A stretch of 37,404 nt of DNA from an uncultured bacterium. GTDB lineage: Bacteria; Patescibacteriota; Gracilibacteria; Absconditabacterales; Absconditicoccaceae. A program made the position numbers and the translations under genes. Shown here piece after piece: positions 7,014 through 8,975 of the stretch; positions within the stretch are counted from its first letter, which is position 1; every line of letters begins with the position of its first letter. Location: contig CAMVSQ010000009.1 in the NCBI GenBank assembly GCA_947170225.1, positions 1 through 37,404 of the forward strand, given 5' to 3'. Below the pieces are notes generated by a model. It saw only the letters and a program-made list of their open reading frames with translations. It did not search any database and was not told the DNA's origin.

Positions 7014-7091
7014 TCATTCTGAATTTATACAGCTATGCTGTACGAAGTGAAGAATCTATTTTAAGATTCTTCGACCACTGCCTCAGAATGA
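7014..7091. repeat. Short hairpin repeat (REP-like)
   Basis: TCATTCTGA (7014-7022) and TCAGAATGA (7083-7091) bound an element with inner hairpins ACAGC/GCTGT and AAGAATCT/AGATTCTT. Elements of the form TCATTCTGA...AAGAATCT...AGATTCTT...TCAGAATGA are widespread in bacterial spacers, to my knowledge. It sits upstream of dnaB. The remainder of 6979-7274 is AT-rich with nothing recognisable. Confidence 0.6.
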
Positions 7092-7274
7092 CAATCACAC
7101 ATTAACTATATACAAAAAAATATTTTTATTTCAAGAGAAAATACCAGTTTTTAACTAGTATTTCCAACACAATATTAACATTTTTTCAACACTATTTTTT
7201 AATCAATTTATTACTTGAGAAACACACAAAAAATATTTATAATAAAATATCATTTAAATTATTTCTGCCAAAGA

Positions 7275-7562
7275 ATGCCAAAATCACCACTCACAAAACT
7301 ACCAAATATCTGACCAGTAATAGCAGACAACCTAATGAAAATCTGAATTACGACACCTGAAGAATTCCTTAAAAGAGATCCTTATGAAATTTTTCATGAA
7401 CTAAAAACCAAAGTTGACCATACACTTTGTCGCTGTGCATTAGCATCAATAGTTTGAGCTCACGAATGAAAAAAACGAAATTTTATACGCAAAGAGTCAG
7501 AAGAAAACTACCTAAAAAAATATCCAAACGATAAGTTTGATACCACGCGAAAAAATTGCTAA
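7275..7562 (+). CDS. Helix-hairpin-helix protein resembling the TfoX C-terminal domain, 95 aa
   Basis: Starts MPKSPLTKLPNIGPVIADNL: the LPNIGPVIADNLMKIGI stretch is a helix-hairpin-helix as in the C-terminal domain of TfoX/Sxy (L.niG...a..L...GI.t...L). The following KRDPYEIFHELK and CRCALASIVGAHEG fit that domain too. All four glycines (NIGP, KIGI, VGAHEG) are TGA codons, so without recoding the gene is invisible. Only the C-terminal domain is present; the N-terminal TfoX half is absent. Such stand-alone domains are usually annotated as 'helix-hairpin-helix' or 'pathogenicity locus' proteins; role unknown, probably DNA binding. Confidence 0.75.
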
Positions 7563-7618
7563 ATAAGTTTCAAAAAAATAACATATTTTAAATTAAAACT
7601 TTTCCCTACAAAAGAATA

Positions 7619-7670
7619 GAGATTCTAGTAACTCAACATTACAAAACGCAAATTAAGCCACTAGAATCTC
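7619..7670 (-). terminator. 3' hairpin of cassette gene A
   Basis: Perfect 11-bp inverted repeat GAGATTCTAGT (7619-7629) with ACTAGAATCTC (7660-7670), loop about 30 nt. A related hairpin (8162-8216) follows the paralogous gene at 8263-8577, and the two 3' flanks align over about 65 nt, both beginning with CAATGA and a T-run. The right arm of the stem contains the TAG that ends gene A under code 25. Confidence 0.55.
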
Positions 7671-7993
7671 ACAAAAAATCATTGTTTTTTTTTCACAGCC
7701 GACATTTCAAGACGGCGTTTCTCCTGCTCGGAAAGTGCATCAGGTCTCAAGTCATAGATCACCCTAAGGATTTTCTTTGGAAGCGGATTCCCAAGCCGCT
7801 TATGATGCAAAGCACATTCCACAAGTTTCTGAGGCGTCACTGATTTCGCGGTCAAACCGCCATTGACCCTCTGAATAACCAAGTTACCTGACTTCGCATC
7901 ATAGTAAATCCGATGCTTCTCGAAAGAATCAAGTCGATTCTTCGGCACTCCAAGTTCAAGGAGTTGTTCTTTTCGTTTCTGTTTTGGATCCAT
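7661..7993 (-). CDS. Cassette gene A: basic small protein, 104 aa plus code-25 extension
   Basis: From MDPKQKRK (ATG 7993) the frame runs 104 codons to a TGA at 7681-7679. Read as Gly it continues GFFVRF to TAG at 7661 (110 aa). The core is basic, with LLELGVPKNR near the start and GNPLPKKILRVIY near residues 68-80; both match the paralogue at 8263-8577 (LLEAGVPERH, GVPLSKVALRDLY). All five other Gly are GGN. An upstream in-frame ATG at 8047 exists, but that extension would cover the palindrome at 8008-8027 and lacks a paralogue counterpart. Family unknown. The paralogue's stop is TAG at the equivalent place, so this TGA may be an inherited stop. Confidence 0.65.
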
Positions 7994-8007: not shown

Positions 8008-8027
8008 CCACGACAACGTTATCGTGG
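8008..8027. promoter_or_regulatory. Dyad upstream of cassette gene A
   Basis: Minus-strand sequence CCACGATAACGTTGTCGTGG, an almost perfect 20-bp palindrome 14 nt before the ATG. Its core ACGTTGT is identical to that of the dyad upstream of cassette gene B. It could be an operator or an mRNA hairpin that presents the core in the loop. Confidence 0.5.
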
Positions 8028-8161
8028 GCAAAGTTAAATATATACAAACAAGAATCTAAGTCAAGACATAATAATATTTTTATCCCATTTTACTCATAAA
8101 ATTATTGAATCAATAAACAAAAATTTTTTCATATTAGATAATACTATATAAAAAAAATAGA

Positions 8162-8216
8162 GATCCTACTAATCCAACACCACCAAACATGAATAATTGA
8201 ATCAATAGAATCTCAA
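8162..8216 (-). terminator. 3' hairpin of cassette gene B
   Basis: GAGATCCTA pairs with TAGAATCTC (one mismatch), wide loop. The minus-strand order after the stop (CAATGA, T-run, GAGATTCTA) repeats that behind gene A. Confidence 0.5.
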
Positions 8217-8262
8217 AAAAGTCATTGCTGTTAACACCTTTTCGGAGTTATCCTTCGCTCAC

Positions 8263-8577
8263 CTACCTTCTCCGTTTTTTAGGCCACTTCATTTTGCCTA
8301 TACGATGAAGTTCATCTTTAGATAGCTTAACACCACCTGCATAGAGATCTCTCAAAGCAACCTTTGAAAGAGGCACACCCGAGGAACGAAAATCAAGCAA
8401 CCCTGAAACAACAGATGCCTTAGAATCGCAAGGCACTGTTTTCAGCTTATTATCCTTAATAATAAGGATTCGATCCCTAGTTCTAGTAACATAAGGCATT
8501 CCCTTATCTAGGATTGAGAAATGCCTTTCAGGCACACCAGCCTCTAGCAAACTGTTTTTTAATGATTCCGTTAACAT
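8263..8577 (-). CDS. Cassette gene B: basic small protein, 104 aa, paralogue of gene A
   Basis: Starts MLTESLKNSLLEAGVPERHF and ends KMKWPKKRRR, TAG stop. It aligns with gene A at a constant one-residue offset: LLE-x-GVP near residue 10-16 and G-x-PL-x-K-x-x-LR-x-[IL]Y near 67-79, followed by a basic tail. No membrane segment or signal peptide. All seven glycines are GGN and none TGA, and G/C-ending codons are common, unlike core genes nearby. It has its own dyad upstream and hairpin downstream, so each paralogue is a one-gene cassette. The basic tail suggests nucleic-acid or membrane contact. I know no family for it. Confidence 0.7.
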   Translation of the reverse strand: MLTESLKNSLLEAGVPERHFSILDKGMPYVTRTRDRILIIKDNKLKTVPCDSKASVVSGLLDFRSSGVPLSKVALRDLYAGGVKLSKDELHRIGKMKWPKKRRR

Positions 8578-8592
8578 AACTAAGATTTTTAT

Positions 8593-8613
8593 ACCAAAAC
8601 AACGTGTCTTGGT
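8593..8613. promoter_or_regulatory. Dyad upstream of cassette gene B
   Basis: On the minus strand ACCAA...TTGGT arms enclose GACACGTTGTT, 15 nt before the ATG at 8577. Position and the core ACGTTGT match the dyad before gene A, while the arms differ in sequence but keep pairing, a compensatory pattern that favours an RNA hairpin. Confidence 0.5.
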
Positions 8614-8702
8614 GTCAGCAATTATAATTATTTATTCAAAAAAGTCAAATATATTACATCATTATTTTTTACAATATTTTTACAAGAATATTTTCAAAAA
8701 AA

Positions 8703-8906
8703 CTAGAAAATATCAACAAAACAAATAACCAAAACAATAGTTAATATAATTGGCCAAGATTTTTTGAATTCACTTTTAAATATTTGCTTTCGACTTTTCC
8801 ATGCCCTTTGACGAGCAATTTCAATCAGACAATAAACTACAGTACATACACAAAAAACAATCAAACATTCTAATACAAACCTTAATAATCAGGCAAAAAA
8901 GTTCAT
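8703..8906 (-). CDS. Small two-TM membrane protein, 67 aa
   Basis: Starts MNFFAGLLRFVLECLIVFCV. Two hydrophobic segments (about 5-27 and 49-65) flank a basic cytoplasmic loop EIARQRAWKSRKQIFKSEFK. One Gly is TGA. It is the last gene of the long minus-strand series from ftsH (15760) downward, about 70 nt after the nucleotidyltransferase gene. Nothing in it points to a function; the size and topology resemble small membrane peptides that are often missed. Confidence 0.55.
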
Positions 8907-8975
8907 TTTATACAAATTAAAATCTAAAATATATATTTTTTTCATATTTCATTCTTAATTCTTAATTATTAATTC

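Follow-up and report, generated by a model that had tools for sequence, protein, structure and literature searches.

A TGA at the apparent donor end of a small, putatively foreign cassette gene in a code-25 bacterium

In an integron cassette, a single open reading frame (ORF) is followed by the hairpin-forming attC element, which contains the boxes RYYYAAC and, further on, GTTRRRY, and whose bottom strand folds better. The two small genes described here, A and B, likewise consist of an ORF followed by a hairpin element, and GTTRRRY is found in the elements of both; when A's element was shuffled, 536 of the 5000 versions also contained this motif. In contrast to attC, the gene strand has RYYYAAT instead of RYYYAAC in both elements, a separate promoter-like site lies before each of the two ORFs, and the conservation between the two copies extends beyond the would-be junction. 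Furthermore, with RNA parameters the gene strand folds far better (-27.9 and -24.7 kcal/mol for A and B) than the opposite strand (-13.6 and -4.2 kcal/mol), and on these tests, together with the missing RYYYAAC, the attC reading was rejected.

Phages linked to Gracilibacteria and Absconditabacteria avoid in-frame TGA and, where TGA serves as a stop, have another stop close after it (PMC10746230). Genes A and B resemble such code-11-compatible phages, as described there, in that no in-frame TGA is used in a code-25 setting and in that the TGA of A is soon backed by a TAG. That study deals with whole phage genomes, whereas A and B are two orphan genes on a contig of the chromosome, next to which no phage gene was recognised; Pfam detected no phage-specific domain in the 12 window proteins scanned. 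All Gracilibacteria and Absconditabacteria prophages in the same study are reported to be TGA-dense (PMC10746230), and this speaks slightly against placing A and B in a long-resident prophage. Phage morons, as defined in PMC6316719, offer another likeness, A and B being apparently complete small transcription units set among other genes and, in this case, foreign in composition. Judging by their promoter-like sites and hairpins, the two look like moron-like units whose donor used the standard code and may have been a phage. No phage gene was identified around them, and their promoters and terminators are putative, suggested by motif and fold. The PeSL cassettes of T4-like phages, as presented in PMC4503421, similarly have regulatory flanks common to divergent small ORFs and place the stem-loop of one unit before the promoter-like site of the next. 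In contrast to PeSL, A and B are present as two copies only, about 90 nt separate the stem-loop from the next promoter-like site, a 5' leader hairpin is present, and no T4-like genome was recognised around them. Among the titles surfaced by the literature searched, none reported such a standard-code cassette in a chromosome. Gene A adds a neat further example to a situation already described and involves no new mechanism. It provides a concrete example of an apparently standard-code gene in a code-25 chromosome, in which one stop codon would have changed its meaning at a known place.

The window, i.e., the whole stretch of 37,404 nucleotides that was analysed, is contig C9 of an assembly of 952,577 bases in 24 contigs that is 94% complete. 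To describe the decoding of TGA in this bacterium, we examined its release factors and tRNA genes. RF2 was not detected in the genome, the best match to the prfB model reaching 248.5 of the 370 bits required, and the gene giving this match exceeds the prfA cut-off (445.6 versus 400 bits) and is thus RF1. At 94% completeness of the assembly, RF2 is likely to be absent from the genome. At C10:30895-30968 of this genome (G000), ARAGORN identified a TCA-anticodon tRNA, labelled tRNA-SeC because the program assumes the bacterial code, which we take to be the UGA-reading tRNA-Gly expected in code 25. Since RF1 is present, RF2 was not detected and a UCA tRNA is encoded, TGA, including the one at the end of gene A, should be read as glycine in this host. 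The glycine-type tRNAs seen have the anticodons UCC and UCA, of which UCA carries the SeC label (L046 2172-2245 and L053 1498-1574), and no tRNA-Gly(GCC) was found among the tRNA genes scanned.

Coordinates of the features of cassettes A and B in the window
Feature	Position	Strand	Description
Promoter-like site of B	8621..8648	minus	TTGACT-16-TATAAT; 11/12 consensus matches; pattern match only
5'-UTR hairpin of B, ACCAAGACACGTTGTTTTGGT	8593..8613	minus	z -3.60
Gene B	8263..8577	minus	104 codons (8577-8266) and TAG stop (8265-8263); GGN-only glycine
3' module of B	8152..8229	minus	CAATGA as in A, here noncoding and 35 nt beyond the stop of B; hairpin z -6.55
Promoter-like site of A	8037..8064	minus	TTGACT-16-TATATT; 10/12 consensus matches; pattern match only
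5'-UTR hairpin (near-palindrome) of A, CCACGATAACGTTGTCGTGG	8008..8027	minus	z -3.67; 0/200 shuffles as stable
Gene A	7682..7993	minus	ATG at 7993; 104 codons, the last Gln; GGN-only glycine
TGA after codon 104 of gene A	7679..7681	minus	Putative stop codon of the donor; should be read as Gly in this host
Read-through tail FFVRF and TAG (7663-7661)	7661..7678	minus	Within the 3' module of A
3' module of A	7611..7686	minus	CAATGA, T-run, long hairpin, T-rich run; fold z -9.12

The initial annotation had reported a TGA at the expected stop position of gene A, and this was confirmed on the minus strand, where the translation reads MDPKQ...AVKKKQ, TGA, FFVRF and TAG. Its proposal that reading TGA as Gly would add GFFVRF and reach the stem of the gene's own 3' hairpin also agrees with the coordinates: the arms of the stem lie at 7670-7653 and 7636-7619, its first base being 7670, and the 5' arm holds the last two tail codons together with the TAG. 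Such a close second stop is not unusual by chance: in the noncoding stretches used, 36 of the 133 TGA triplets that had a stop further on were followed by TAA or TAG within six codons. A run of nine A residues (7685-7693, gene strand) stands immediately before CAATGA, at the junction of the ORF and the module of A, and is likely a slippage site.

Both proteins are 104 residues long and basic, with pI values of 10.1 for A and 10.3 for B, and share 25% identity. Their local alignment score of 69 was reached by one of 5000 shuffles (shuffle maximum 79), and a search with A found B at E 0.0155. The aligned ends differ by one column, in line with the earlier remark that the paralogue has a TAG within about a codon, and the basic C-termini are alike (KKKQ in A, KKRRR in B); an in-frame TAA lies five codons beyond the TAG of gene B. 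At the DNA level, 173 of 336 columns of the coding sequences are identical (z 4.0), and the promoter-leader regions gave a z of 3.2 in the shuffle comparison. The kinship of A and B is weak at the protein level and is backed by their clearly common 3' module.

This module of about 75 nt is identical between A and B in 59 of 77 columns (z 11.6, 1000 shuffles), and its order is CAATGA followed by T or C, a T-run, TGAGATTCTA, the long hairpin, TCTCTATT and further T. In A the CAATGA block is read in frame, its last three bases being the TGA, whereas in B it is noncoding; the reassigned TGA thus sits in a common regulatory module, outside the coding sequence proper. Because the block is common to both modules and noncoding in B, a fresh point mutation at the TGA is unlikely, and the suggestion that a host mutation from TAA or TAG had created it is disfavoured. 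The arrangement favours a TGA that served A as its stop in the donor or that the module provided as a stop.

Each of the two 3' hairpins has 23 pairs on the gene strand, with none of 200 shuffles as stable. Pairing is kept at 23 of 23 positions in both copies (46 of 46 cells), with three pairs changed on both sides, and sliding the partner lowers it to 30-50%; in the covariation control, which rests on two sequences and is not decisive, 62 of 500 shuffles scored as high. A T-rich run comes after each hairpin, and a terminator role is possible; neither hairpin was listed by the terminator scan. In the own genome, the hairpin model R1 recovered A and B only, plus one row at E 8.4. Among 99 relatives it gave three rows only (E 0.25-0.86), and a scan of 379 phylum genomes yielded a single row, its E value of 0.0088 per genome being chance-expected over 379. 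A pattern of the 3' hairpin had no match in genome_contigs or viral_contigs, and Rfam reported nothing at gathering score in the A/B region, with three chance-level rows. Ten viral contigs with CAATGANTTTTTTGAGATTC were judged chance matches, the long 23-pair hairpin being present in none of the printed folds; nine of them have identical surroundings and the tenth different ones, and one contig ends inside the stretch. In another genome of the phylum (G195), two adjacent long GAAGT..ACTTC hairpins in an intergenic position (L087 1265-1341) resemble the 3' module in shape, not in sequence.

Upstream of both genes, the first hexamer of TTGACT-16-TATAWT starts 71 nt before the ATG, and the leader hairpins comprise 8-9 bp. 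Promoter-like sites overall numbered 14, compared with 8.2 in shuffles (sd 3.3), which is no clear excess. The picture is that of two putative monocistronic cassettes, with B upstream of A.

Codon usage was compared with 27 window ORFs, hand-chosen from 95 as likely host genes with other plausible ORFs excluded; in these, 428 of 620 Gly codons are TGA versus none of 12 in A and B (0/5 and 0/7, respectively), for which the chance is P 7.8e-7 if codons are independent. All five Gly codons of A are GGN, so the statement that no other TGA occurs in this gene is correct. Scored for host-like use of synonymous codons, A and B rank lowest among the 29 genes, outside all 27, and the score of each is below all of its 5000 synonymous simulations. 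Their GC3 values (0.44 for A and 0.33 for B) compare with 0.13-0.31 in the host genes measured alongside them. With regard to gene order, the interval from dnaB to the nucleotidyltransferase gene is about 390 nt in one congener (G001) versus about 2.0 kb in the window, and therefore the segment was either gained in this genome or lost in that congener; in a further genome (G004), the nucleotidyltransferase gene has different neighbours. Two more genes lie in the same extra segment. In the Cdd1/TfoX_C-like gene (7278-7562, plus strand), all four Gly codons are TGA and codon usage falls outside its 1000 simulations, and in the gene at 8703-8945 the single Gly codon is TGA. Since the former is odd in codon usage yet uses TGA, odd usage alone is no proof of a standard-code origin. 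Based on these comparisons, A and B look foreign and derived from a standard-code source. The idea, already raised from the sequence, that the TGA is a stop inherited from a standard-code donor gains support from codon usage, the GGN-only glycine, GC3, the absence of the segment in the one congener examined and the lack of RF2.

AlphaFold modelled A from two sequences with a mean pLDDT of 83.4, as helices, three strands and helices, which indicates a fairly confident small fold. When the tail was included, pLDDT was below 50 at residues 102-110; this predicts disorder for the tail and is consistent with a tolerated extension.

We assign a probability of about 0.7 to the reading that A and B are autonomous cassettes from a standard-code donor, possibly a phage, and that the TGA is A's donor stop, now decoded as Gly. 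A code-25 bacterium would have acquired two small cassettes, each made of a promoter-like site, a 5' hairpin, a 104-codon ORF and a long 3' hairpin. In the donor, A would have stopped at this TGA, which is part of the conserved 3' module behind each ORF. The host, if it expresses the gene, would read this TGA as Gly and append GFFVRF, so that the protein gains six residues and translation stops within the 5' arm of the stem, at the TAG. The protein would probably tolerate the disordered tail, while a ribosome ending within the stem may disturb hairpin formation. Against the donor-stop reading, B ends in TAG, so the pair is no proof of TGA use by the donor, and the module rests on two sequences only.

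The 35-nt spacer that separates the stop of B from CAATGA is missing in A, and the A junction is the nine-A run; both would fit a short deletion after arrival that removed the stop and spacer of A and fused its frame to the module, in which case the TGA was always Gly and TAG the sole stop. We consider this unlikely, given that the two proteins end within one aligned column and with the same basic tail, as expected if the TGA is the old end. Alternatively, the protein could be native to code 25, with the TGA as one more Gly codon and GFFVRF as its regular C-terminus; the host decodes TGA as Gly and uses it for most Gly codons of the 27 window genes. This seems quite improbable, considering that A and B have no other TGA, that the codon lies within a module that is noncoding in B, and that the tail has a low pLDDT.

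The foreign composition of A and B, and the lack of relatives outside the own genome in 59 near and 379 phylum genomes, are likewise what an assembly chimera or contaminant DNA, absent from the bacterium, would produce. Such an artefact is very hard to reconcile with a segment that is embedded in an uninterrupted contig, flanked by genes in the host's code, and in which neighbouring genes (7278-7562 and 8703-8945) use TGA for Gly, and it is accordingly given little credence. Returning to acquisition from a standard-code donor, a broader version of it would regard A and B as members of an undescribed family of mobile, RNA-structured cassettes that cross code boundaries, in which the 3' module can supply the stop of an abutting ORF and, in code-25 hosts, yields a short tail and a ribosome inside its own stem. 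This broader version is speculative and rather improbable.

To identify potential relatives, A and B were compared with Pfam, PHROGs, NCBIfam, PADLOC and PDB sequences, and nothing exceeded any cut-off. Foldseek returned no structural match with E <= 0.001 in the PDB and viral sets, and the best Z from VIA-align was 4.5, too low for use. For A, no relative except B was found by pattern scans and tblastn of viral_contigs and genome_contigs, by tblastn of plasmids and phages, or in 59 related genomes; the A1 profile matched nothing in viral_contigs and, among the 379 phylum genomes, its own genome only. Gene B had no relatives in phages, plasmids or viral_contigs, and the A/B region had no match in 50,697 phage records. 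With no orthologue of A in the databases searched, none was available there that bears a conserved GFFVRF or that resides in a standard-code genome. Sub-threshold partial matches to A were seen at E 0.01-0.07 in three genomes and at E 0.008 in G031.

Beyond the 3' end of gene A, a REP-like inverted repeat was observed at 7019-7098 of the window (CATTCTGAAT...GAAGAATCT...AGATTCTTCG...CTCAGAATGACA); in the same genome, loci L004 and L006 contain pieces that resemble it.
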